Shown: positions 2,356 to 41,200 of the stretch, piece after piece
Numbering within the stretch: the stretch's first letter is position 1
Layout of the letters: every line of letters starts with the position of its first letter
From: a virus
Virus record (IMG/VR): IMGVR_UViG_3300024262_003478
Span: 1 to 41,264 of that record
DNA: 41,264 bases
Reading direction: 5' to 3' (one strand)
Notes under the pieces: model-generated
What the model was told of the DNA's origin: nothing
Database searches by the model: none
What the model saw: the letters and a program-made list of their open reading frames with translations, nothing else
Position numbers and translations under genes: made by a program

Positions 2356-3675
2356 ATGAATCTATTAAATAAGTTTAAAAAACTTTCACAACTTAAAAAA
2401 AATATATTTTCAGGCACTCTTTTAGCAGGAACACATATTATATTATTATTAGTTGCTTTTCCAATATATATTAGGTATCTAGGTGTAGAGAGATATGGAT
2501 TGTGGGCAGTAATTTCAGTTGTACTTTTTTTTAGCCAAATGGGAGATTTAGGAATTAATGAAGCTGTAATAAAATATACAGCAGAGGAATATGGGAAAAA
2601 AAATTTTCAAGAGATTAATTCATATATTGTTACCGCTAACTTAATATTAATTATACCTTCATTATTAATTATAATTGCATTAACGATTTTTAATGAAAAC
2701 ATATTGGATTTATTAAAATTAACTGGCAGTCTTCGTCAAGAGATTAAATATTTAATTCCATTTTTTGGCATTTTAACATCTTTAATATTTTATTCAAATA
2801 TTATGTGGGGTACATTAAAAGGAGTTGGACGTGTTGATTTGGCCAATTATATTTTTATAATTGTTAGCTTTTTACAAGTAATAATTTCTATTATTTTAAT
2901 AATTTTAGGTTTAGGGGTGTGGGGATTATTTTTGGGTAATTTCATTTTATATATTTTTTTATTTATTTTATGCTTTTTAATACTAAAGAAAGTTTTTAAA
3001 TTAGAGATATTTAGATTAAATTATTTTGATATTAGAAAAATAAAAAAATTAACAAAATTTGGTGGTACTATATTTGGAAGCCGGTTAATTGCAATGTTCT
3101 TAGATCCTTTCAACAGAATAATTATTACAAGGTTTATAGGTTTATCGGCAGTGGCATATTATGACATTTCGCTAAAAGTGGTTTTATCTCTAAGGAGTCT
3201 TTTTCAAATGGGACTAAGTGCAACTATGCCGAAAGTTAGCGAGTTGAATGTAAGCAGTGTAAATCCAAAGTTAGAAATTTCTAATATACATAGAAAAGGA
3301 ATGAGATTTATATTGTTTTTTGCATTGCCATTTTTTGTGCTAATGTTTTTATTTGGAAAACCAATTCTAAATTTATGGCTAGGAAATAATTATGGTATTA
3401 ATATCTTGATGTCTTTAAGATTTTTTTTGGTAGCTTATTTTATTAATCTATTAAGTGTTCCGGCATATTATATTTTTATGGGGATTGGTAAAGTAAGATT
3501 ATGCTTTAATAATATTGCTATTCAATCTTTAATTAATGCAATTGTTATTTTATTTATTATTATGATTAGAGATAGAATAAGTTTAATAGAAGTTATATCA
3601 ATTTCTTGTATCAGCATTATAATATCAGCATTCTATATATTAGTTAAATTTAAATTGTTAAAATTACAGGGATGA
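2356..3675 (+). CDS. Oligosaccharide flippase, Wzx/MATE-like
   Basis: Protein of 439 aa with about 12 hydrophobic helices and short basic loops, the length and pattern of the polysaccharide transporter family (Wzx, RfbX; MVF clan). The start region carries the typical FSGTLLAGTHIILLLVAFPIY helix and the G(V/L)ERYGLWA motif after the first helix pair. These proteins flip undecaprenyl-linked oligosaccharides to the outer leaflet. The ribosome site is weak. It lies 69 bp after the nuclease lipoprotein on the same strand, and it has no polymerase or transferase beside it, so in a lysogen it would act on host sugar lipids, altering surface glycans (inference). Confidence 0.88.
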   Translation: MNLLNKFKKLSQLKKNIFSGTLLAGTHIILLLVAFPIYIRYLGVERYGLWAVISVVLFFSQMGDLGINEAVIKYTAEEYGKKNFQEINSYIVTANLILIIPSLLIIIALTIFNENILDLLKLTGSLRQEIKYLIPFFGILTSLIFYSNIMWGTLKGVGRVDLANYIFIIVSFLQVIISIILIILGLGVWGLFLGNFILYIFLFILCFLILKKVFKLEIFRLNYFDIRKIKKLTKFGGTIFGSRLIAMFLDPFNRIIITRFIGLSAVAYYDISLKVVLSLRSLFQMGLSATMPKVSELNVSSVNPKLEISNIHRKGMRFILFFALPFFVLMFLFGKPILNLWLGNNYGINILMSLRFFLVAYFINLLSVPAYYIFMGIGKVRLCFNNIAIQSLINAIVILFIIMIRDRISLIEVISISCISIIISAFYILVKFKLLKLQG

Positions 3676-14776: not shown

Positions 14777-15262
14777 TTATCCTCTTTCCATCTCGTTGGA
14801 GTCACTCGGTCTAAGTTCCCAATACTTAGAAATGCAATATTCCTTATTATATTTATCCTGCGGTACTTCCTCGTCTCCAAGTTTCACTTTACCGCTAAAG
14901 GTAGCCTTTGCTGCCCTTACCAACCAAATGTCTGAAGCTGTTTTGTATAAATTATAATAATTAGCTTTGATGTAAACCGCTGTTTGTGCGGTGGTAAAAG
15001 TATAAATTCCATTGATGTCATCCCCCGTATAATCCCCTTCATTTATTGGAGTATCTTCAGCAGAATCAAGTATTACATTATCCAAATATTTGTAGTCACA
15101 TAACCAAATCAGATAATCATCATTTTCATAAGCTAACGCTACATCGTCTAAGTAGTCTCTGTACTTATTCAGATATTTTGTAATTTCATCATCTGTAAAA
15201 TCTTCTGAATCCTCATCCTCATCTTCAATTAGTATTCTTACTTCATCAATTAGCTGGGACAT
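14777..15262 (-). CDS. Head-tail connector adaptor (gp6/gp15-like)
   Basis: Protein of 161 aa. The acidic helical start (QLIDEVRILIEDEDEDSEDFTDDEITKYLNKYRDYL) is typical of gp6-like adaptor proteins that dock under the portal. Ribosome site GGGAGG. It restarts the morphogenesis genes after the glycosylation block, and its first 17 bases overlap the end of the last glycosyltransferase, so the block is fused into the operon. Confidence 0.68.
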   Translation of the reverse strand: MSQLIDEVRILIEDEDEDSEDFTDDEITKYLNKYRDYLDDVALAYENDDYLIWLCDYKYLDNVILDSAEDTPINEGDYTGDDINGIYTFTTAQTAVYIKANYYNLYKTASDIWLVRAAKATFSGKVKLGDEEVPQDKYNKEYCISKYWELRPSDSNEMERG

Positions 15263-15854
15263 TTATTTTAGCCTCCCTCACCATAAGAATTTTATAATAT
15301 TTTTTCTTATCCTTTTTCCTATCAGCACTCCGCAAATCATTTCTATGCAGTAGCTCAAATTCTGTTACCTTCTGGCTGGTATATCCTTCTCCTACCCTGT
15401 CTAAATTTGCAAATAACTTTCCTTTGTCTAAAATCATCTTGTGCGTTCCCCAATAGTGCAGCCCATCCTTGTATCTGAAAAATCTATTAGTGCGCCTGTG
15501 CCTTCGTCTATCGCCCTGCTCGCCTATTTGTATTATACCAGTATCAGCTTCCAGTTGGGGAATTTCACCAACCAGTATTTCGTCTGTATCCAGGTTCAAA
15601 CAAATATCACCGTCTTTTAGTTGGTCAAGATATATATTCCTCTTTTCAACCTCATCAAGTCCACCGATTAAAGTAACTGATACCTTGTCTTTTAAATATT
15701 TCAAAGTACCATCCGTGGAAAAATTACTATCCCCAGGAAAGTCTGCAAATCTGCCGTCAATACAAATAATTTTGTCTACTTTACCAATTACAGATTCTAC
15801 ACATTCTTTTATAAGTGGCCAGTCGTTATAAGTTATTATCGTTGCTACTAACAT
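15246..15854 (-). CDS. GT2-type glycosyltransferase
   Basis: Protein of 202 aa with a GT-A fold start (LVATIITYNDWPLIKECVESV), CIDGRF in place of the usual D-G-S, and the metal-binding DTDE at 89-92. The C-terminal half is basic (QGDRRRHRRTNRFFRYKDG) and ends in a short acceptor region with GLHYWGTHKMI. It should transfer a sugar from a nucleotide donor. It is the last gene of the glycosylation block, overlapping the methyltransferase upstream by 7 bp and the adaptor gene downstream by 17 bp. Confidence 0.75.
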   Translation of the reverse strand: MLVATIITYNDWPLIKECVESVIGKVDKIICIDGRFADFPGDSNFSTDGTLKYLKDKVSVTLIGGLDEVEKRNIYLDQLKDGDICLNLDTDEILVGEIPQLEADTGIIQIGEQGDRRRHRRTNRFFRYKDGLHYWGTHKMILDKGKLFANLDRVGEGYTSQKVTEFELLHRNDLRSADRKKDKKKYYKILMVREAKINVPAN

Positions 15855-16366
15855 TTCGATTCCCAGTAACCAATATTTCCCATTACTTTGACATTACCAA
15901 GCTCGTTTACAAATTTGATAACCCATTGAGATACCTTTCTGGGATGTACCTTTGTATCGTGAAACAAAACTCTGCCACATCTTTTAACCAATTCAAAATC
16001 AGCTTTTACATTTTCATAAGAGTGATTGCCATCAATAAAAGCAAAATCAAAATCTATATCTTTGAGTATACTTTTTATATCTAATTCTCCCTTTACCAAA
16101 TGAAATGTAATTTTATCTGTGACTTTTAAATCATCCCACATTTTATATTTTTCGGGATAATCAACAATATCAAATGTATGAACTTTTTTTGCAAAATCTG
16201 CTATATATGCAACTGACATTCCTTTATATGTCCCTATTTCAATTGCTGTATTAATTTTTATACTGGGAAAAAATTCTATGAAATCCTTCTCCAAAGTAGC
16301 AGAACCAGAGCCCTTAAATAAATCATTATCTTTAGTATACTCAAACACACGTATCACTTTATTCAT
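15848..16366 (-). CDS. Class I SAM methyltransferase (Methyltransf_24/CmcI-like)
   Basis: Protein of 172 aa. Motif I is AIEIGTYKGMS (about 41-51), the acidic loop end is HTFDIVD, and DFAFIDGNHSYENVKADFELV with the later GRVLFHDTK gives the metal-assisted type seen in CmcI and sugar O-methyltransferases (Asp and His near FIDGNHSY). GGAG lies ten bases upstream of the ATG. It is in the glycosylation block, so a sugar hydroxyl is the likely substrate (inference). Confidence 0.78.
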   Translation of the reverse strand: MNKVIRVFEYTKDNDLFKGSGSATLEKDFIEFFPSIKINTAIEIGTYKGMSVAYIADFAKKVHTFDIVDYPEKYKMWDDLKVTDKITFHLVKGELDIKSILKDIDFDFAFIDGNHSYENVKADFELVKRCGRVLFHDTKVHPRKVSQWVIKFVNELGNVKVMGNIGYWESKC

Positions 16367-16367
16367 G

Positions 16368-17507
16368 TCAAACTCCTAACTCCCCTTGATAAATATAATA
16401 AGGTTCTGGCCCAAGCCAGAAATTATCATCTATAAAATCCTTTGCTTTCATATCGTTATATATTTTTGTCCCAGGCAACACCCATAATTGTTTTAATGAA
16501 CCCACGTTATCAGGCTGTATTATCTCCAAAAACTGCCTCGTTTCCTCTCTGGTCTGTTCATTATTTAACATTCCGTTATATATCATCAATGCACATAAAT
16601 TGATGCCAACTTCTTTTACTGCTAATGCTGCCTTGATATTTTGTTCAACTTTAATGTGCTTATTATATGCATCTAAAACCTGCTGGCTTCCTGATTCAAA
16701 CCCAATTGAAACTTCATAACAACCAGCTTTTTTGAGTAGATTAGCCAATTCGATGTCCATACCATCTGCTCTCATAGTTGCAAAGAAACGAATGCCCTTA
16801 CTGGCAAGACGGCCCATGATTTCTTTGGTAATATCAAGATTGCATGACAAGCTATCATCTTCAAATACAAAATGCCTTTTATTAAATCTGTCTATAATAT
16901 AATCTATTTCTTCTACGATATTATCAGCAGTTCTAACTCTGTATTTCTTCCAAACTTTATGCGTTGAGCAAAATGTACAATTTCCCGTGCAGCCCCTTGA
17001 TGCTATAATAGGCACTCTTATATCTGCTTTACCAATATATTTATCATTATCAAGATTCGCTAACTCCCATGCAGGAAATGGTATTGTATTAATATTAAGC
17101 TCAGGACTTTGTGTGAACTTATCACCATTACCAATTAAAATCTTCTCTAAACTTGCTTCCCCTTCACCAATAACTATGTAATCTATATATTCATAATTCT
17201 CTGCTAATTGCTGTGCCATAATTGAAGCATGAGGGCCACCAGCTATTGTTTTAGCATCGTATGTTTTGGCAATCTCTAAAACTTTTAAAGATTTATGCCT
17301 TCCTGGAGTAAGCATTTGCACACCCACAAAATCAGGCTTAAACTCTTTTAATTTTGCCTCAAAGTCAACCCAATTTCCTAAAAAGCCGTCATAATATTTA
17401 ACCTCGGCAATGTTTTTAATATAACCAGCTAAATACAATAATCCTAATACTGGATTTGAACGCCCACCCTGTGAGACATTAGGAGGGTTTACTAATAATA
17501 GTTTCAT
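16368..17507 (-). CDS. B12-binding radical SAM enzyme
   Basis: Protein of 379 aa. Residues 1-128 form a cobalamin-binding Rossmann domain (LLLVNPPN, GVQMLTP, IAGGPHAS, VIGEGEASLEKIL); the classic DxHxxG histidine is absent (DGFLGN), as in many base-off members. The radical SAM core follows with Cys173-x3-Cys177-x2-Cys180 in SRGCTGNCTFCS, then FEDDS and SIGFESGS. Such enzymes often methylate unactivated carbon. It ends one base before the ATG of the O-methyltransferase-like gene and overlaps the upstream methyltransferase by TAATG, so it probably modifies the sugars or acceptor made by this block. Confidence 0.85.
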   Translation of the reverse strand: MKLLLVNPPNVSQGGRSNPVLGLLYLAGYIKNIAEVKYYDGFLGNWVDFEAKLKEFKPDFVGVQMLTPGRHKSLKVLEIAKTYDAKTIAGGPHASIMAQQLAENYEYIDYIVIGEGEASLEKILIGNGDKFTQSPELNINTIPFPAWELANLDNDKYIGKADIRVPIIASRGCTGNCTFCSTHKVWKKYRVRTADNIVEEIDYIIDRFNKRHFVFEDDSLSCNLDITKEIMGRLASKGIRFFATMRADGMDIELANLLKKAGCYEVSIGFESGSQQVLDAYNKHIKVEQNIKAALAVKEVGINLCALMIYNGMLNNEQTREETRQFLEIIQPDNVGSLKQLWVLPGTKIYNDMKAKDFIDDNFWLGPEPYYIYQGELGV

Positions 17508-18193
17508 TATTTATTCTTGTGTTTCATAACAAATAATCCATCTAAACCTTTCCAACCTAAACCTGCAAACTTATTCTTATCTCTGAAATCAGCACCAGAT
17601 ATTAAATCATTATCAAATTTTATCTTCTTATATAGAGGATAATCCTCTTCTAATCCAAGTTTGTCCATTTGTTCAATATACCAATCTCTTGTTTGTGCAG
17701 TTCTTCTATTACCACCATACATGCTTCTAACAGGAAATATAAAATTAGGTGGATAACCTTTACGTCTAAATAAAAAATGAAACCATGTTTGAATATATAA
17801 AAGTAAAGTATCTGTAAAAATTTGAGATAACCCCTTTAAAGCAATAAGAATTTCATCTTCTTCAAGGTATTCTATGGTATTAATTGCAAATACAATCTCC
17901 CATTTTTTATCCCAATTAACTGTATCTATCATATCGGCCTGAAAAACATTTTTAGCAATAGAATTGTCAACTGCATATTGCACAATATCAAATCCTTCAG
18001 CGTTCTCACCTAATTCTTGCAGATAATGAGTTATCCATCCCATGCCACAACCAACTTCAAGTATCTTCTTATTATGAAAATATTTTGATATTACTTTGGC
18101 AGATTCTGGATAATGAATTGTTCGTTGTGTATTATTTTCTGCATTATTACGTGAATCAAAAAATTTTGGTTTAAATCTATCTGATTCTCTCAT
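17507..18193 (-). CDS. Class I SAM methyltransferase
   Basis: Protein of 228 aa with motif I ILEVGCGMGWITHYL (44-58), FDIVQYAVD after strand 2, FQADMID and WEIVFAINTIEYLEED after strand 4, the layout of Methyltransf_11/25 enzymes. The C-terminal part (about 150-225) is a lid with aromatic residues. Target unknown; its place between a glycosyltransferase and the B12 radical SAM gene points to a sugar or a glycolipid-like acceptor. Confidence 0.8.
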   Translation of the reverse strand: MRESDRFKPKFFDSRNNAENNTQRTIHYPESAKVISKYFHNKKILEVGCGMGWITHYLQELGENAEGFDIVQYAVDNSIAKNVFQADMIDTVNWDKKWEIVFAINTIEYLEEDEILIALKGLSQIFTDTLLLYIQTWFHFLFRRKGYPPNFIFPVRSMYGGNRRTAQTRDWYIEQMDKLGLEEDYPLYKKIKFDNDLISGADFRDKNKFAGLGWKGLDGLFVMKHKNK

Positions 18194-18928
18194 TTATTCC
18201 CATTCCTTTGGTATTTCTTTTAAATTGTCCTCTTTAATTAGTTTGTATTTTTTTTCAATAAAGTGCTTCTCACCATTCAGCGGTATCCCTTTTTTTGCAC
18301 TTCGTTGTGCCCATTTCATATATCTTTTCCCTTTTTCAAATAATTCAGCATCACTCTTAAGAAGTGAATAATGTTTTAATGCGATATTATTATCATGAAC
18401 TACGTTAAAACCCTCAATTCCTTTCATGATCCATTTGCCATTAAAACACAGATGCTCATGTACCTCACCATAATATTCCGTTCTGGTGTCTTTCCTATAT
18501 AGCCTTAGATGTGGTTCAAGTCCCCTGTCAGAATTTATTGTCTTAACATCTCTGATTAAATTTGCTGTCGGGAATACAAAACCAAATACATCCTTGTGCT
18601 TGTCGGCTCTTATTTCATCTATTAACCGTGATATTGATTTTGAATATGTCTCATCGACATCTATCTGCAAAACCCACTCTGATGTAACTTCTGCAAGTGC
18701 GATATTTTTCTGTTCTGAAAACGAATCTGGCATCTCGTTTATTCTTAAACATATATTTGCGCTATCCTGCTTTTGGAAGTATTTAATCTTATCTACCGTA
18801 TTATCTTTCGAGCCACCATCTATTATTACATACTGGTCAGGCTTGACATAATCCCTTAACCACTCAAGCGTTTGCAATATAAAACTCGATTCATCCTGAC
18901 AGATTGTTAGACTTGAAACTTTATCCAT
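18194..18928 (-). CDS. GT2 family glycosyltransferase
   Basis: Protein of 244 aa from the ATG at 18928-18926, which has AAGGAG seven bases upstream; an in-frame TTG six bases earlier is less likely. GT-A motifs: LTICQDESSFILQTLEWL, VIIDGGSKDNT (34-44), SFSEQKNIAL and the metal-binding DVDE (90-93). The region around 145-170 with YYGEVHEHL is typical of SunS/WaaE-like transferases. The start overlaps the end of the preceding gene by eight bases (ATGGATAA). Confidence 0.85.
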   Translation of the reverse strand: MDKVSSLTICQDESSFILQTLEWLRDYVKPDQYVIIDGGSKDNTVDKIKYFQKQDSANICLRINEMPDSFSEQKNIALAEVTSEWVLQIDVDETYSKSISRLIDEIRADKHKDVFGFVFPTANLIRDVKTINSDRGLEPHLRLYRKDTRTEYYGEVHEHLCFNGKWIMKGIEGFNVVHDNNIALKHYSLLKSDAELFEKGKRYMKWAQRSAKKGIPLNGEKHFIEKKYKLIKEDNLKEIPKEWE

Positions 18929-19670
18929 TCTCAAGCTCCTTAAATAACGCTAAATGCCATTCTCTAAATTTATCCCAAGTAAAATTTATTGAATACCTAT
19001 CCTTTTGCATTATAGATTTTTCAATAGACTTAAAATAGTTTATTAACTGGCTGTAATCCTTATATATAAAATCAATATCGGTTTTAAAGGTATGTATAAA
19101 ACCTATATCCCTTGACACTACTGGCACTCTTGCATATATGGCATTTAATATATCCATAGAGCCACCTTCCGCAAGTGATGTTTGAAGTAAATAATCTATA
19201 CTCTGGAAAAACTTATCATTGGTTATATCTGTATGTTTAAATTCAAAAATACCCAATAAATCCTTTTTAAGTCTCTCAAGTTCGCCTCTGTTTTTTCTAC
19301 CGGTTGAGTAATCTCTACCACTTGTTCCTATTACAATTTTCTTTTTGCTGTTAATAGAAATTCCCATATACGGGCATACCTTAATTTTAGAAGATTCTAT
19401 TCCGTGTTTTATAAGCTCGCTTTGTCCATAAGATGACATACAAATAATCAAATCAGCTTTGTCTAAAATAGTTGTATCATCATCATCAAGGTGCGTAAAG
19501 AACACAATATCAAATTTAGATTTTATGAGGTTAAAATGTTGCCAGTATTTCCAATTCACATAATATGTTATATCTGCTCTTTTGTTATCCAGAACTCTGC
19601 CAATTTTTACAATCTCTCTGCCAATTTTGTTGAGTATCCAACCATCGTCAGGGTATATTATTCCAATCAT
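18921..19670 (-). CDS. GT4-like glycosyltransferase (GT-B fold)
   Basis: Protein of 249 aa. The N-terminal half is a Rossmann-like domain with FFTHLDDDD and ADLIICMSS; the C-terminal half holds IVIGTSGRDY and the nucleotide-sugar signature TSLAEGGSMDILNAIYARVPVVSRDIG, with Glu in the usual position. It is shorter than the usual 350-400 aa of GT4 enzymes, so the N-terminal domain is reduced. TAATG overlap with the 796-aa transferase. Confidence 0.75.
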   Translation of the reverse strand: MIGIIYPDDGWILNKIGREIVKIGRVLDNKRADITYYVNWKYWQHFNLIKSKFDIVFFTHLDDDDTTILDKADLIICMSSYGQSELIKHGIESSKIKVCPYMGISINSKKKIVIGTSGRDYSTGRKNRGELERLKKDLLGIFEFKHTDITNDKFFQSIDYLLQTSLAEGGSMDILNAIYARVPVVSRDIGFIHTFKTDIDFIYKDYSQLINYFKSIEKSIMQKDRYSINFTWDKFREWHLALFKELENG

Positions 19671-22060
19671 TAGTATGCTCTCTTATTACTTTTATGTTTT
19701 TTCCATTCAAAATCTTTCGTAGGTAGGGTTCCTATTTTTAAGCCAAGTTTCCATGCAACATAATCCAAAGATAACTGATCCCTATGTGAGCCATTTTCAA
19801 TCCCTCTCCAAACACCCTCGCCAAACTCTTTTACAATATCAGTATGTTTTCTTAAAATGATATTACCTGCATGTAATCCATAATCTTTCGGATATCCTTC
19901 CTTTGCGATTTTTGTAATTTGCCCATCTATAACATTTGGATAATCAAGCCTGTACTGCTTACAGACCTTTGCTTCCCCATATAAACATTTCCTGGCAAGA
20001 TGCAGTTTCATTAAAATATCACAATCATTAGTCAATAATCTGTTTATATCAACCAGTATTTTAAAATTACAATCTATATATAGACTAACTTCAGCATCTG
20101 GGAAGTATCTACATAAAAGCCACTTGTATAATCTTGATTGCCTTCTTGGCTCAAGTATCTGATCTACTTTTATCACATTCCAGAAATTACTTTTAATATC
20201 AGTATTGCTAAAGAGATAAAATTCCCAATCAGGATTTGGATAATGGTCTTCTATGATATTATCATATTCACCTATATTGACCGATACTACTATCTTATTA
20301 TGCTTTTGTTTTTTTTTTATGTTCGTTATCTTTACATCATTTGCTACATATATATCTGTATCCTTTTTTTTACGCAACCTTTCAAGCGCTTCTGCGGTTA
20401 CCTTTCTACTATTTATTTTGGATTCCACCGCTGTTCTGTGTCCATAATGATGCACATAGGAATGTTTAATCCAATAAGTTTTATATCCAACTTTTTTTAT
20501 ACGATTATAAAAATCAGTATCATCGTAATATGCAATAGGAGACATGCGATAATCAAATACCCCGATTTTATCTATCACATCCTTACTGGTAAGAAAACAA
20601 AATCCAACAAGTTCAATTTCCTCATATCCTCTTGGCAATATATTGGGAATATTCTGTATTTCTTCATCCTTCATATCAAATCTTCTTCTTGAATAATTTA
20701 TAATCATCTGTTTAGTTCTTGACCATGAAGTAGAGGGGCCAAGTAATCCTACATCCGGTAAGCTAAAACCAGCTTTAAGTTTTTTTAACCAATCTTTTGT
20801 AACTATAGTATCAGAATTCAAAAAACAGAGATAATTATAACTTGCTGTTTTAATGCCCTGATCAGTACCATAAGAAAATCCCTTATTTTCTTCATTAGTT
20901 ATCAATGTAAATCCAAGTTTTGCTTGCTGTTCAGATATATATTTTTTGGTAACTACGTTAGAGCCGTTATCTATTATAATAAGTTCATAATCAGAGGTAT
21001 ATTTAATCACGCTTTCAAGACATTTTTTAAAATAATCCAAGGCATCTCTTACAAGAATGATTACTGATACCCGAGATGTTTTTGTTTCTACCTTGCCAAG
21101 TTCTACGTCATTGACTACATATAAATCTGATGACTTTTTACGTTCGTCAAGTTTTTTCTTGTTCTCCCCTCTTGTAACTGTATTCAATCCCATTTCATTT
21201 GTAGTTTTACTTCCAAAATGATGGACATAAGAAGCCGTACACCATACCATTTTAAAACCAGTCTTATCAACCCTCCATGCAAAATCTACATCTTCATGCC
21301 AGGCAAGTCCATATCTTCTCCAATCAAATACTCCAATCTTATCAAATACTTCACGCTTAACAATCCAGCAAAATGCTGTAAGGCGAGTAATTGTATATTT
21401 TTCAGGGGCTATATCTGCATAGTGATTAATTGTAGTTTCATCTTCAATCTTAAACCTACCTATTGATTCTGGGATAGTCTGCATTGGAACTGTTCTACAA
21501 GTGGAAGGGCCTACTATTCCAACATTATTAGTATACTTAAATCCTTTAAGCATCCTTGGAAGCCAATCATGAGTAACCACACAGTCGGAGTTTATAAAGC
21601 AGATATAATCAAATGTAGCTATCTTTATACCCTGATTCCAACCGTAGGATATTCCCATATTTTCCTTATTGGTTATGAGCTTATAATCTATATACCCTAT
21701 ATTTTTAAGGTATTTTTTAGTCTCGGCATTAGAGCCGTTGTCTATAATTATGAGTTCATAGTTATCTGTATATAAAGCAATACTCTCAATACATTTCTTC
21801 ACATATTTAAGAGCATCCTTTATAAGGACAATTATTGAAACATTCTCGTGTTTTATATAATCTTTTAATTTTATAAATTCAGTACCATGTTTAGATATTA
21901 TGATTTTTTTAGATATTATGGTTTTACTTTCACTTGGATAATGTGCAACACCTTTATTTATCCATCTCTCAGCAATCTTATCTGGTATATTAGCCTCATC
22001 ACCCTTTTTATATCTTACTGGATGCAGATTCTTATCCCTGTTTAAAATTACCTTAATCAT
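19670..22060 (-). CDS. Three-domain glycosyltransferase with virion-type N-terminal module
   Basis: Protein of 796 aa from the ATG at 22060-22058, which overlaps the end of the preceding gene (ATGATTAA); a TTG start 57 bases earlier is less likely. Residues 1-45 match the N-terminus of the 121-aa protein next door (AERWINKGVAHYPSE against ADRLVNRGKAHLLPE). Residues 72-320 are a GT2 domain (IIIDNGSN, INSD 156-159, WHED 254-257). Residues 330-580 are a second, clearly duplicated GT2 domain (IIIDNGSN, LNSD 414-417, YYDD 511-514). Each ends in a similar SDLYVVNDV/TDIYVANDV segment. Residues 588-796 resemble the DUF616/TOD1-like transferase domain (EPRRQSRLYKWL, YIDCNF). It could add at least two or three sugars in succession. 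Confidence 0.85.
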   Translation of the reverse strand: MIKVILNRDKNLHPVRYKKGDEANIPDKIAERWINKGVAHYPSESKTIISKKIIISKHGTEFIKLKDYIKHENVSIIVLIKDALKYVKKCIESIALYTDNYELIIIDNGSNAETKKYLKNIGYIDYKLITNKENMGISYGWNQGIKIATFDYICFINSDCVVTHDWLPRMLKGFKYTNNVGIVGPSTCRTVPMQTIPESIGRFKIEDETTINHYADIAPEKYTITRLTAFCWIVKREVFDKIGVFDWRRYGLAWHEDVDFAWRVDKTGFKMVWCTASYVHHFGSKTTNEMGLNTVTRGENKKKLDERKKSSDLYVVNDVELGKVETKTSRVSVIILVRDALDYFKKCLESVIKYTSDYELIIIDNGSNVVTKKYISEQQAKLGFTLITNEENKGFSYGTDQGIKTASYNYLCFLNSDTIVTKDWLKKLKAGFSLPDVGLLGPSTSWSRTKQMIINYSRRRFDMKDEEIQNIPNILPRGYEEIELVGFCFLTSKDVIDKIGVFDYRMSPIAYYDDTDFYNRIKKVGYKTYWIKHSYVHHYGHRTAVESKINSRKVTAEALERLRKKKDTDIYVANDVKITNIKKKQKHNKIVVSVNIGEYDNIIEDHYPNPDWEFYLFSNTDIKSNFWNVIKVDQILEPRRQSRLYKWLLCRYFPDAEVSLYIDCNFKILVDINRLLTNDCDILMKLHLARKCLYGEAKVCKQYRLDYPNVIDGQITKIAKEGYPKDYGLHAGNIILRKHTDIVKEFGEGVWRGIENGSHRDQLSLDYVAWKLGLKIGTLPTKDFEWKKHKSNKRAY

Positions 22061-22418
22061 TCCACTTCTCAAACTTGTTTTTTTTCTTCCTTTTTCTTTT
22101 AGGTTTAGATTCTTCAAAACTTGTAAATCGTTCTGGGATAGGCTCTATTAAATCAACATCAGTTACAACCTCTTTTACTGGTTCAGCAAGTTCTCTAACT
22201 TCTCCTACTTTTATTTTTATTTTTTCTAATGGGACTTTAATAGGCCACTTGGCTTTTCCAGAATATTCCTCTATTACTTTTATTTCTTTTTTAGTAGGCA
22301 CGTAATCGCTGAAAGGTATTTCTGGTAGTAAATGCGCCTTACCTCTGTTGACTAATCTATCAGCTTCCCTCTGCCTTACTTCTTCTACCTTACCAGTTTT
22401 GTTAATTACAATTTTCAT
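22053..22418 (-). CDS. Small head-associated protein sharing a module with the big glycosyltransferase
   Basis: Protein of 121 aa encoded just after the major capsid gene. Residues 1-34 (MKIVINKTGKVEEVRQREADRLVNRGKAHLLPE as a whole; key part ADRLVNRGKAH) resemble short N-terminal modules of small proteins that follow capsid genes in many phages. The middle is Pro/Glu-rich and the end strongly basic (KPKRKRKKKNKF). TAGGAG precedes the ATG. It may be a head decoration or completion protein, or the acceptor/adaptor for glycosylation. The function is not known; the shared module is seen directly. Confidence 0.65.
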   Translation of the reverse strand: MKIVINKTGKVEEVRQREADRLVNRGKAHLLPEIPFSDYVPTKKEIKVIEEYSGKAKWPIKVPLEKIKIKVGEVRELAEPVKEVVTDVDLIEPIPERFTSFEESKPKRKRKKKNKFEKWND

Positions 22419-22437: not shown

Positions 22438-22459
22438 GCGGACTTTTAAGGTAGTCCGC
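22438..22459 (-). terminator. Stem-loop behind the capsid gene, probably an attenuator
   Basis: Perfect 7-bp stem GCGGACT/AGTCCGC (22438-22444 with 22453-22459) and eight-base loop, between the capsid stop (22474) and the start at 22418. No U tract follows, so it may slow or process the transcript, keeping the glycosylation genes below capsid level, rather than fully terminating. Confidence 0.5.
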
Positions 22460-22473
22460 TAACCTTTGCTATT

Positions 22474-23370
22474 TTAAAGTCCTGTAACTTTTGCGAAAGC
22501 ATTTACATCTCTCATTCTAAATGCTCTTCTAACCCATAACTTTATAGCTTCCATATTCTTTTCCCACAAATTATAAGTTTTTTCACCTATAGTAATAGTG
22601 GCTTGATTGGTTATGTCGTATTTTACTCCACCTCTTAAACCCTCAAACCCATATGTCCAATCTCCTACAATTAACTCATAAGCAGCGGGAGAACCAACCT
22701 TTAACATATTTCTGCTAAATCTTATGGGATAGCCATACAATGTTGCAGGCTCTTTTGCATTAGCAGGTTGAAATATGGGAAGTCCATCCTCATCTCTCAG
22801 ATTTCTAAGTCTTGCTTTTAGAGTAGTATGTGCAGCCCATGCTATATTATCCTGGAAACCATCTTCTTCTATACAACCCAATGCATTAGAAATATCTATA
22901 AGTAAATCATCTCCAGTTGGATATGCAATAATATGTTCTGCTGGAATATCTCCACTTATATTTTCCGCAAAAGTTCCTACATCTTCGTAACCCATATAGA
23001 TTCTATCCAGTTTTTTAGCAATAGCTTTTTCACACTCTCCTCTTAAGAAACTATCAACAGCTATATTTGCGTTTTCACTCCACTCTTCAGTTAGAGGCAC
23101 AATTACAGCTATTTCTTTTGTAGTAAGGGTTAGCTGCTCAAAAGTTCCTTTACTCTTAGGTTTTTTTCCACCTTCAGTTCCTACAACTCCAGCCTCTATT
23201 TCATCGCCAACCATATTTATATCCAGAGTCTTAGAAGTCATAGGCCACTTTCTAAGAAATGGTTGGCAAACAGATTTTATTTCAATATTACGTAACATCT
23301 CAACTGCTAATGGTGCTGGTACAACATACTTACCATCAGCATCAACTATTCCACTATAAAAATCACCCAT
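22474..23370 (-). CDS. Major capsid protein, HK97 fold
   Basis: Protein of 298 aa. The start (VVPAPLAVEMLRNIEIKSVCQPFLRKWPMTSKTLDI) and GTEGGKKPKSKGTFEQLTLTTKEIAVIVPLTEEW are typical of the N-arm, E-loop and P-domain of gp5-like capsid proteins; the later GLRGGVKYDITNQATI and WVRRAFRMRDVNAFAKV are the A-domain and end. There is no long delta domain, in keeping with a separate scaffold encoded upstream. AAAGGAG sits within the end of the scaffold gene (TAAAATG). Confidence 0.9.
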   Translation of the reverse strand: MGDFYSGIVDADGKYVVPAPLAVEMLRNIEIKSVCQPFLRKWPMTSKTLDINMVGDEIEAGVVGTEGGKKPKSKGTFEQLTLTTKEIAVIVPLTEEWSENANIAVDSFLRGECEKAIAKKLDRIYMGYEDVGTFAENISGDIPAEHIIAYPTGDDLLIDISNALGCIEEDGFQDNIAWAAHTTLKARLRNLRDEDGLPIFQPANAKEPATLYGYPIRFSRNMLKVGSPAAYELIVGDWTYGFEGLRGGVKYDITNQATITIGEKTYNLWEKNMEAIKLWVRRAFRMRDVNAFAKVTGL

Positions 23371-24372: not shown

Positions 24373-24840
24373 GTGAATAAATTTTTTAAAATAGGAAATC
24401 AAAGATTTATAAAAGTTAAATGTCCCGATTGTGAACTTATGCACAATGTTTCTCATAAAAATTATTATGCTCAAAAAAATGGTAAACGTAATCTTTCTTT
24501 TAGGTGTACTAAGTGTGGACACGCCAGAGCAATGAAAACAAGGAGGAATCCAAATTTGAGAAAAGTTAATTCCAATGGCTATATTAAAATTTATGTTCCG
24601 GAAAATCCTATGTCTGATAAAAGAGGTGAAGTCTATGAACACCGTCTTGTAATGTCTAAGATTCTTAATCGTCCTCTTCAAAGTTGGGAACACGTTCATC
24701 ATAAAGATGGGAATAGGGCAAATAATTCTCCAGATAATCTTGAACTTCACCCCAATAGCGAACATCAAACAATAAGATTTATGAAAGAAAGAATTTATTA
24801 TCTTGAAAATTTGCTTACAAAACATAATATTCCTTTTTAA
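24373..24840 (+). CDS. HNH endonuclease, inserted on the opposite strand
   Basis: Protein of 155 aa starting at GTG. An N-terminal zinc ribbon (CPDC near 18, CTKC near 54) is followed by RKVNSNGYIKIYVPENP, YEHRLVMSK and the HNH core WEHVHHKDGNRANNSPDNLEL, typical of phage HNH homing nucleases of the HNH_3 type. It is the only rightward gene inside the late region. It interrupts the gene order between a 125-aa gene and the 75-aa head gene and brings its own promoter, as mobile nucleases do. Confidence 0.88.
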   Translation: MNKFFKIGNQRFIKVKCPDCELMHNVSHKNYYAQKNGKRNLSFRCTKCGHARAMKTRRNPNLRKVNSNGYIKIYVPENPMSDKRGEVYEHRLVMSKILNRPLQSWEHVHHKDGNRANNSPDNLELHPNSEHQTIRFMKERIYYLENLLTKHNIPF

Positions 24841-33801: not shown

Positions 33802-33965
33802 ATCCTCTCCCTCCAAATCCAATATCCTTTGCCGTCAATAAATAATCTACCCAGCTTCTCCATGCTTAAAAATTTCTCCTCAAACTCCTTCAGTAATTTA
33901 TCCTTCTCTAAAATCATTGCAATTAATTTTTCTTTGCCTAATTGTTGTAACCTTTGATAGTTCAT
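33798..33965 (-). CDS. 55-aa coiled-coil protein
   Basis: ATG at 33965-33963 overlaps the TGA of the radical SAM gene (ATGA), and the stop overlaps the next start in the same way. The product has a leucine-heptad helix (LQQLGKEKLIAMILEKDKLLKEFEEKFL) then LGRLFIDGKGYWIW. Coupling on both sides supports it. Function unknown. Confidence 0.62.
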   Translation of the reverse strand: MNYQRLQQLGKEKLIAMILEKDKLLKEFEEKFLSMEKLGRLFIDGKGYWIWRERI

Positions 33966-34858
33966 AACAGCCCCTCTATACTTAATAATTTTCTATATTT
34001 CCTATTTTCAAACATATCTAAAAATTGATTAAAACTCATCCCCTGAAACCATTTATGATTATTTACCCATTGAGATAGGGGTATTAATTTGCGATCCTTT
34101 GAAAAGTTATATCTCATAACATAGGCATTTTGATTTCTTGATTTTAGGTAATTTGCTCTGAATAAATCCTCTTCCAAGGTAGTATTAAAGCCAGTTAGCA
34201 TTAGCCAGGTACAGCGATTAATCCCGTTTTTTTGAAGTAGAGTTATAGCCCTATCTACATCATCAAAATAATCCAAACTATCAAAAGCAAAATGCAGTTC
34301 CTTATGTCTAATTGTTTTTAACTCATCTATAATATCTTGATTCAGTAATCTACAGTCCAGTCCTTGGTTAAAATCCAACCTGATTTTATTTTCTCTTGCC
34401 TGCTTACATATCAATTTAAAATGTTCGGGCAGTGCTAAAATATTATTATCAAGTAAAATTATATCTTTAGATTCGCTATCCCATAAATCCAGTAAATCAC
34501 CAACTGCCCTAATCTTACCTTCCTTCTCTGGCACAATACACCAAGGACATTTTCTAATACAACCACGACTACAAAAACCCATATTTATTCGTGGTTTAAT
34601 TTTTTCTATTTCATCCGGTAAATTAATACTAAGACTATAACCACTACCACCAATTAGGCATTTAGGATCATCTTCCCAGTCAAAACATTTAGATCTATTT
34701 CTTTTAAAAACACAGGATACATAGATTTTATCTGCTAAGGGTTTATATAAAGGAAAATTCCATACAACCTCATTACCTCTATTAAGATAATATTTTTCAA
34801 TCTTCTTTAAGGCTAAATTAGGAATTTTACTATCTATGTCTATTATCAATATTTTCAT
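33962..34858 (-). CDS. Radical SAM protein
   Basis: Protein of 298 aa. The N-terminal 90 residues look like a reduced cobalamin-binding-type Rossmann domain (KILIIDIDSKIPNLAL ... YVSCVF). The iron-sulphur motif is Cys100-x3-Cys104-x2-Cys107 (RGCIRKCPWC), followed by LDNNILALPEHF, DFNQGLDCRLL, HFAFDSLD and the YNFSKDRKLIPL end. It forms a 5'-deoxyadenosyl radical; similar proteins occur in early regions of other phages without known substrate. Overlap ATGA with both neighbours. Confidence 0.83.
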   Translation of the reverse strand: MKILIIDIDSKIPNLALKKIEKYYLNRGNEVVWNFPLYKPLADKIYVSCVFKRNRSKCFDWEDDPKCLIGGSGYSLSINLPDEIEKIKPRINMGFCSRGCIRKCPWCIVPEKEGKIRAVGDLLDLWDSESKDIILLDNNILALPEHFKLICKQARENKIRLDFNQGLDCRLLNQDIIDELKTIRHKELHFAFDSLDYFDDVDRAITLLQKNGINRCTWLMLTGFNTTLEEDLFRANYLKSRNQNAYVMRYNFSKDRKLIPLSQWVNNHKWFQGMSFNQFLDMFENRKYRKLLSIEGLL

Positions 34859-36459: not shown

Positions 36460-37095
36460 TCAATTGGGGAACTCTTGTATTTTTTCTTTCCATTTAAGAT
36501 TATCTTTTAGGAATATTGGTATATTTAATTCCATCGCCTGATTAATAATATTTTGTACCCACTCTTTTTTGTGGACTGGTTTTGGAGTTAAGCCACCAAT
36601 TATTATCCAATCTAACGATAAATATTTTGTTATTGGTTCTGGTTCAGACAATAATGGTTCGTAGGATATAAATTTAATGTTATCCATTCCCGAAAAAGAA
36701 CCGTGTATGTGGGATTGATTTTTCTCTTTTCCGGTAATAGTAGTACCAAGCCAGCAATTTTTGGGAAATATAAAATCTTGATACCTTTGAGGAAATTTAG
36801 TTAAAAATATAAAAGTATGATAACTTGGTAAAGCATAAATATGAAACAATATTTCGTTTACCCATTTTTTAGGTATCCAATCACCAAAAATTTCATGAGT
36901 AGAACCTACAAATATTTTAGATGGTTTTTTAATTTTTTCTAAATCATAAAATATATCCGAATCCCATCTAATTTCTGGATTCCAACCAAATCTCTTATAC
37001 ATTCTAATAGCATAGCAATACCAACAATCATTTTTACATAACCCCTTAATCGGATTAATTGTATAATCGCACCATTCTATTTTTGTTCTATTCAT
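36460..37095 (-). CDS. DUF5131 (phage Gp37/Gp68-like) protein
   Basis: Protein of 211 aa. MNRTKIEWCDYTINPIKG followed by Cys20-x3-Cys24-x2-Cys27 (CKNDCWYC) is the exact start of the DUF5131 family; later KIFVGSTHEIFGDWIP, FIFLTKFPQRY, WLGTTIT, ISYEPLLS and DWIIIGGLT match its conserved blocks. The cysteine motif and TIM-like pattern suggest a radical SAM relative. The protein is a little short for the family. Substrate unknown. It overlaps the 3D-domain gene (ATGA). Confidence 0.85.
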   Translation of the reverse strand: MNRTKIEWCDYTINPIKGLCKNDCWYCYAIRMYKRFGWNPEIRWDSDIFYDLEKIKKPSKIFVGSTHEIFGDWIPKKWVNEILFHIYALPSYHTFIFLTKFPQRYQDFIFPKNCWLGTTITGKEKNQSHIHGSFSGMDNIKFISYEPLLSEPEPITKYLSLDWIIIGGLTPKPVHKKEWVQNIINQAMELNIPIFLKDNLKWKEKIQEFPN

Positions 37096-41049: not shown

Positions 41050-41200
41050 TAAATTCCTTGTAGAATTTAGCTATATCTTTTTTATCAAATCCTACCATTG
41101 TCATCAGTTCCAAAAAGTTGATCCTTTTCCTGCCCTGCCGCATCATCATTTCTGCTTCGGATTTAATTTGTTCTAAGCTATAAACTTTTTTGAATTTCAT
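41012..41200 (-). CDS. 62-aa early hypothetical protein
   Basis: Helical, basic (LEQIKSEAEMMMRQGRKRINFLELMTMVGFDKKDIAKFYKEFIG). The ATG at 41200 marks the exact end of the 90-bp terminal repeat. In the circular form it lies 20 bp inside the HNH gene; in the alternative right end (41201-41264) a different upstream sequence precedes it. No ribosome site is obvious in either context. No family recognised. Confidence 0.65.
   Translation of the reverse strand: MKFKKVYSLEQIKSEAEMMMRQGRKRINFLELMTMVGFDKKDIAKFYKEFIGHREYYYPKER
41111..41200. repeat. Right copy of the 90-bp terminal repeat
   Basis: Identical to 1-90. Identity ends at 41200/90, directly at the A of the ATG of the 62-aa gene, so the two alleles diverge exactly at the start codon. 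Confidence 0.93.

Follow-up and report, generated by a model that had tools for sequence, protein, structure and literature searches.

Gene content of the cassette

The IMG/VR virus record IMGVR_UViG_3300024262_003478, whose 41,264 bases form the stretch of DNA analysed here (the window, W), carries a cassette of glycan-building enzymes among its head genes. This cassette (15246-22418, minus strand) is flanked by the gene of the major capsid protein (MCP) on one side and by a conserved head-tail gene on the other. It comprises eight open reading frames (ORFs) coding for four glycosyltransferases (GTs), one of them with three GT domains, two methyltransferases, a B12-binding radical S-adenosylmethionine (SAM) enzyme and a small protein of 121 amino acids (aa). 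An earlier annotation made from the sequence alone (the original prediction) had described these genes, and their number, positions, strand and families were borne out by ORF calling and Pfam. Related loci were obtained by scanning IMG/VR and were annotated by ORF calling and BLAST; L-numbers denote loci on these related IMG/VR contigs.

Read along the minus strand, the cassette begins with the small protein (22053-22418), its constant left end, which consists of an N-terminal domain of about 30-45 aa, a linker and a basic C-terminal tail, and which has homologues at the equivalent place in the relatives that are intact on the left. It is followed by an 815-aa protein (19670-22117) composed of an N-terminal domain, two GT2 domains and a TOD1/MUCI70-like GT domain (Pfam GT2, GT2 and TOD1); a GT4-type glycosyltransferase of 249 aa (18921-19670); a GT2 glycosyltransferase of 246 aa (18194-18934; PF00535, 3.4e-13, 50 bits); a SAM methyltransferase of 228 aa (17507-18193; PF13489/PF13649, motif EVGCGMG); a B12-binding radical SAM enzyme of 379 aa (16368-17507; PF02310 and PF04055), with CTGNCTFC as its CxxxCxxC motif and AprD4 (6fd2) and OxsB (5ul2) as PDB relatives; a SAM methyltransferase of 172 aa (15848-16366; PF13578, 1.9e-12), which recurs in L010, L041 and L042; and, as the constant right end, a glycosyltransferase of 202 aa (15246-15854; hereafter tGT) with a predicted SunS/ThuS-like GT-A fold, proposed to be a protein-priming glycosyltransferase. 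Pfam and sequence motifs support the two methyltransferases (MTase_24 and MTase_23/25) and the radical SAM enzyme. The count of four GTs holds as well, two of them lying below the Pfam cut-off: tGT (18.7 of 23.3 bits) is backed by its predicted fold and the 249-aa GT4 (21.2 of 26.4 bits) by relatives in the same slot of L010, L020 and L042 at 36-58% identity. In eleven loci, none of the inner proteins tested contains a membrane segment, at a threshold of 1.6 for the mean hydropathy over 19 residues (KD19).

The genes had been said to abut or overlap by 1-17 bp. Indeed, the junctions within the cassette measure +1, 0, -1, -7, -14 and -17 bp (gaps positive, overlaps negative), apart from that of the 815-aa gene, whose TTG start implies an overlap of 65 bp. 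An ATG at 22060, which shortens the protein to 796 aa and the overlap to 8 bp, is on sequence grounds more likely the true start, because AGAAGTGG lies just upstream and L006 starts at the equivalent codon. At the other end, tGT overlaps the gene of a putative head-tail adaptor (14777-15262, minus strand) by 17 bp, as predicted; this adaptor has no Pfam or PHROG match and is named from synteny. The left neighbour of the slot is the MCP gene (22474-23370, minus strand), encoding a protein of HK97 fold (PF05065, 8.2e-31; phrog_10, 1e-40).

A GC-rich hairpin without a T-run (22438-22459, minus strand) is predicted in the 55-bp gap between the MCP gene and the cassette. A hairpin of differing sequence folds in this gap in all 14 loci examined, namely the window and 13 relatives (z -1.0 to -5.6). 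It is probably an attenuator or an mRNA-processing element, and possibly sets the capsid level against the enzyme levels. The original prediction that the cassette is expressed with the virion proteins needs qualifying, since the hairpin at all of these loci makes it unlikely that the enzymes are expressed at the level of the capsid.

A conserved slot with an exchangeable middle

The original prediction had proposed a search for the same gene order in metagenomic viral contigs, and this order was found: about 20 distinct related phages share the head module and carry glycan enzymes in the slot behind the MCP gene, so the cassette is not a chance occurrence. The small protein and glycan enzymes follow the MCP gene in every locus that has an MCP identity of at least 41% and is intact at that place, and no relative with an empty slot was found among these loci. 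The slot is retained at MCP identities from 100% to 41%, and also in a deeper relative, L059 (MCP 31%, portal 32%, about 54% GC), in the order MCP, domain-methyltransferase fusion, two GT4 and tGT; the methyltransferase half of this fusion has a BLAST match to a methyltransferase of L003 and no Pfam match. Glycan enzymes are absent from the slot next to distant MCPs (23-28%; L043-L045) and from the equivalent position in two cultured portal/MCP relatives, Bacillus phage 268TH002, which has a head fibre gene there, and Bifidobacterium phage Bbif-1. Searches against cultured phages with tGT, the 249-aa GT and a flippase encoded elsewhere in the window gave no match. As judged from these gene orders, the slot is an old, hypervariable glycan-enzyme locus ancestral to the group; the idea of a cassette spliced into the operon as a one-off insertion is therefore abandoned, since the content of the slot has been swapped. 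This architecture may have arisen independently in an unrelated phage (L054:9491-16043), where GT4/GT2 proteins are flanked by MuF-like and head-tail-like genes.

The 59 inner genes of 16 loci fall into 34 families, 18 of which are singletons, and their products include GT2, GT4 and TOD1 proteins, FkbM and other methyltransferases, a SPASM radical SAM protein, an NAD epimerase, a split transketolase and a TupA-like ATP-grasp protein. Among the annotated loci, the B12 radical SAM enzyme is confined to the window and its near-copy L002. L003 and L004 come from different metagenomes and have identical cassettes. L006 resembles the window closely in its portal, MuF, tube and tape measure genes (about 78-93% identity); DNA homology between the two extends through the small protein and the domain at the front of the first enzyme up to 21936, and returns within tGT at 15847. 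The left breakpoints in L014 and L010 correspond to window positions 21934 and 21937, respectively, and the right breakpoints in L006, L010 and L014 to about 15847-16082, at or just before tGT. Furthermore, five inner genes of L005 and L034 are 66-73% identical and thus closer than the MCP (51%), MuF (38%) and tGT (44%) of the same loci, so that the middle has moved between lineages as a set; L052 carries the same inner set. The cassette genes are under purifying selection, with dN/dS values of 0.09-0.34 in unsaturated pairs, the small protein excepted (0.52).

The slot also collects other cargo, since DNA methylase-like and YopX-like genes interrupt the glycan genes in L034 (10963-20390) and L052 (7040-17170). 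The MCP itself occurs in two types (about 42-52% identical), which are swapped while neighbouring genes stay 84-92% identical (window 22474-23370 versus L006:2787-3683). A link between capsid type and cassette type was considered and rejected, as phages with different MCP types have cassettes in common (L006/L014 and L005/L034/L052).

tGT and the fused domain

The model of tGT predicted with AlphaFold2 (AF2; pLDDT 90.4) has SunS/ThuS chains as its six best Foldseek matches in the PDB (E 7e-8 to 2e-7, TMq 0.64-0.69; next best 2e-5), and profile searches gave weak matches to ThuS and to the flagellin GlcNAc transferase GmaR. SunS, ThuS and GmaR all act on polypeptides, which is the main reason for preferring a protein acceptor. 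tGT precedes the adaptor gene in every locus that reaches it, the two overlapping by 4-20 bp in 10 of the 12 loci compared and being separated by about 290 bp in the other two, L018 and L052; the structural gene behind tGT in L058 is a different one. The divergence of tGT follows that of the adaptor (Mantel r 0.90, 0 of 2000 permutations), and tGT stays with the phage backbone while the middle moves.

The front domain of the first enzyme, of about 42 aa (MIKVILNRDK...GVAHY; 21937-22060, minus strand; AF2 pLDDT 92.5), is the domain found in the small protein, and its 3' edge marks the point where L006, L010 and L014 cease to match the window at the DNA level. Its predicted fold has an L9 N-domain/YqbF-like topology (weak Foldseek matches, E 0.06-0.16). 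The closest Pfam model is DUF7210, matched by six of the 16 domain members (best E 0.00027) below the Pfam cut-off (member 1 scores 14.8 of 27 bits), and a PDB sequence search with the domain gave nothing significant. The label of a small head-type protein, given to the 121-aa protein by the original prediction, accordingly draws on its position and on weak DUF7210 and PHROG matches. Docking to the ribosome through the L9-like fold was also considered and set aside, the matches being a Foldseek E of 0.06 and an L9 Pfam match of 0.058 in one member.

In the window, L003, L035 and L041, the domain is joined to a GT2 chain. Its other fusion partners are GT4 enzymes of two kinds (one in L005, L006, L014, L034, L049, L051 and L052, the other in L010) and a methyltransferase-like protein in L059, and in L020 it sits inside a TOD1-GT2 protein; L012 and L016 have no such fusion, and the domain is missing from the GT4 that comes closest from beyond the lineage (L053, 46%). 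Its recurrence on unrelated enzyme folds suggests a shared docking role.

Comparison with known systems

The mycobacteriophage Corndog (cluster O) resembles the window in having an O-methyltransferase (gp35) and GTs (gp36-38) amid tailed-phage head genes; its set is found between the portal and the protease, and all four proteins were detected in infected cells and not reported in virions (PMC4351075), whereas the slot of the window lies between MCP and adaptor. The group of the window further differs from Corndog in content swapped between relatives, constant ends and a fused domain. Virion proteins of Che8, Corndog and Myrna are reported to be glycosylated (Freeman 2023 as cited in PMC12363180, PMC11256854 and PMC12619734). 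No mycobacteriophage record was listed by tblastn with three GTs of the window (815, 249 and 202 aa), and the relation to Corndog would be one of analogy and not of homology. In chloroviruses and Mimivirus, virus-encoded GTs likewise build particle glycans (PMC8456856), although these are eukaryotic giant viruses.

SunS and ThuS, the best structural matches of tGT, are soluble GT-A enzymes that glycosylate peptides, but tGT shares 18% identity with them and is shorter, and neither a glycocin precursor nor an exporter was found among the ORFs at 13-24 kb of the window. Bacterial capsule and O-antigen loci have constant flanking genes and an exchangeable middle of glycan enzymes, as does the slot, which differs from them in lacking a polymerase, a flippase and lipid-carrier enzymes and in its location in a phage head operon. 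For O-antigen conversion of the gtr type, the membrane flippase or membrane-anchored GT expected beside GT genes was not found in the cassettes tested (KD19 below 1.6). The small phage proteins of the YqbF/DUF7210 kind resemble the small domain in fold and through weak profile matches, and yqbF follows the capsid gene of its element; what sets the window group apart is that its domain occurs in fusions with GTs and with a methyltransferase-like protein as well.

Proposed function and alternatives

The block, constant at its ends and exchangeable in its middle, is probably a locus for virion glycosylation, a reading favoured by a position in the head operon that is kept across deeply diverged relatives, the predicted fold of tGT, the co-divergence of tGT with the adaptor, the lack of membrane proteins and the Corndog precedent. 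The soluble, SunS/ThuS-like tGT would start the glycan by attaching a sugar to a conserved protein of the virion as the particle assembles, and the GT2, GT4 and TOD1 domains of the middle would extend the glycan. Other middle enzymes would tailor it by O- or C-methylation or, in the relatives, by FkbM methylation, by sugar building with transketolase and epimerase and by TupA-like ATP-grasp ligation. The domain of about 42 aa would anchor the first inner enzyme to the head as it grows, or to the partner of the small protein. Homologous recombination through the constant ends would replace the whole middle and so leave close relatives with different glycans, masking or altering the particle surface. 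This specific order, in which tGT primes, the middle extends and the domain docks, is put forward tentatively. Of the methylated oligosaccharide on the phage's own capsid or head protein that had been proposed originally, virion glycosylation is the part best supported; the inner genes of the window are one of many exchangeable sets.

Several points weigh against this reading. Virion glycosylation is deduced here from genes and predicted folds, and its acceptor protein is putative; since the MCP type changes independently of the cassette, the MCP need not be this acceptor. The match of tGT to SunS/ThuS is one of modelled structure, at 18% identity, and the fold is also found in GTs that act on sugars. 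The docking role is read from the recurrence of the domain, which could be a mere recombination hot-spot or joint. Finally, the genome contains a Wzx/MatE-like flippase gene (2356-3675, plus strand; PF01943, 1.2e-20), which a host-surface pathway could use.

This gene, together with a lipoprotein-like nuclease on the same strand, opposite to the cassette, and the likeness of the GT, methyltransferase, epimerase, transketolase and TupA sets to surface-polysaccharide clusters, would fit a cassette that alters a glycan of the host surface, for serotype conversion or superinfection exclusion, and is merely located in the late operon. Such a role is unlikely, as neither the cassette of the window nor those tested in relatives encode a membrane-bound initiating transferase, a flippase or a polymerase, tGT, a soluble enzyme of SunS/ThuS-like fold, diverges in step with the adaptor, and late expression leaves host conversion little use; moreover, the flippase-like gene lies 11.6 kb from the cassette on the other strand, and six related records that carry the slot yielded no match to it. 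The original prediction had argued from the position in the head operon against a host surface target; a host-surface role is kept as a minority view because of the flippase-like gene. A slot that gathers unrelated moron genes without common function, its constant ends serving as homology for exchange, would explain the breakpoints at the conserved ends and the HNH, YopX-like and DNA methylase-like genes inside L034 and L052. This is less likely still: the inner genes of all relatives are overwhelmingly glycan enzymes under purifying selection, with whole sets moving as units (L005/L034/L052; L006/L014).

Diverse glycans can be attached to DNA by phage GTs as a hypermodification (Pyle 2024 as cited in PMC12619734), but glycosylation of the phage's own DNA bases is very improbable here, as the record has no thymidylate-synthase-like (hydroxymethylase) match, the cassette adjoins the MCP gene and not replication genes, and tGT resembles peptide glycosyltransferases. 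Least probable is a secreted glycocin-like glycopeptide with the 121-aa protein as precursor: SunS and ThuS, fold relatives of tGT, do modify bacteriocin peptides, but the 121-aa protein has a basic tail and no cysteine, and the block encodes no ABC transporter or protease.

Genomic setting

An exact repeat of 90 bases at 1-90 and 41111-41200 indicates that the genome is probably near-complete and circular or permuted. The late operon, on the minus strand, runs in the order terminase, portal, MuF, scaffold, MCP, cassette, head-tail proteins, tube, tape measure, tail and lysis. An HNH endonuclease-like ORF, likely a homing endonuclease, lies on the opposite strand within the head operon (24373-24840, plus strand), between MuF and scaffold. 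The flippase gene belongs to a low-GC island (about 28%) on the plus strand, with a lipoprotein-like thermonuclease (1438-2286) and a helix-turn-helix (HTH) protein (971-1339), which looks like a host-directed moron region; the thermonuclease and the HTH protein were likewise not found in the six related records, by a search without positive control. The early region encodes a weak second radical SAM protein and a DUF5131 protein (33962-34858 and 36460-37095, minus strand). A host search, in which genome contigs were scanned with the tGT profile, gave only three weak non-phage GT matches.

Implications

To our knowledge, few cultured phages are known to glycosylate their virions with enzymes of their own, and in these the modification was studied as antibody evasion. 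Virion glycosylation by phages is thus not new in itself; the novelty lies in the architecture of a swap slot, in its constant SunS-like enzyme and in a fused domain that recurs. The locus may act as a particle serotype locus, in which a constant priming GT and a capsid-docking plug-in domain let sets of glycan enzymes be swapped, so that sister phages differ in their surface glycans. The analysis offers a testable order of constant priming and variable extension, together with a candidate protein glycosyltransferase of predicted fold, and the small domain may direct unrelated enzymes to the phage head. A slot that is kept while its content is swapped, in an uncultured lineage, suggests strong diversifying selection on particle glycans without mammalian immunity, for which defence, adhesion, protist grazing and stability are candidate pressures.

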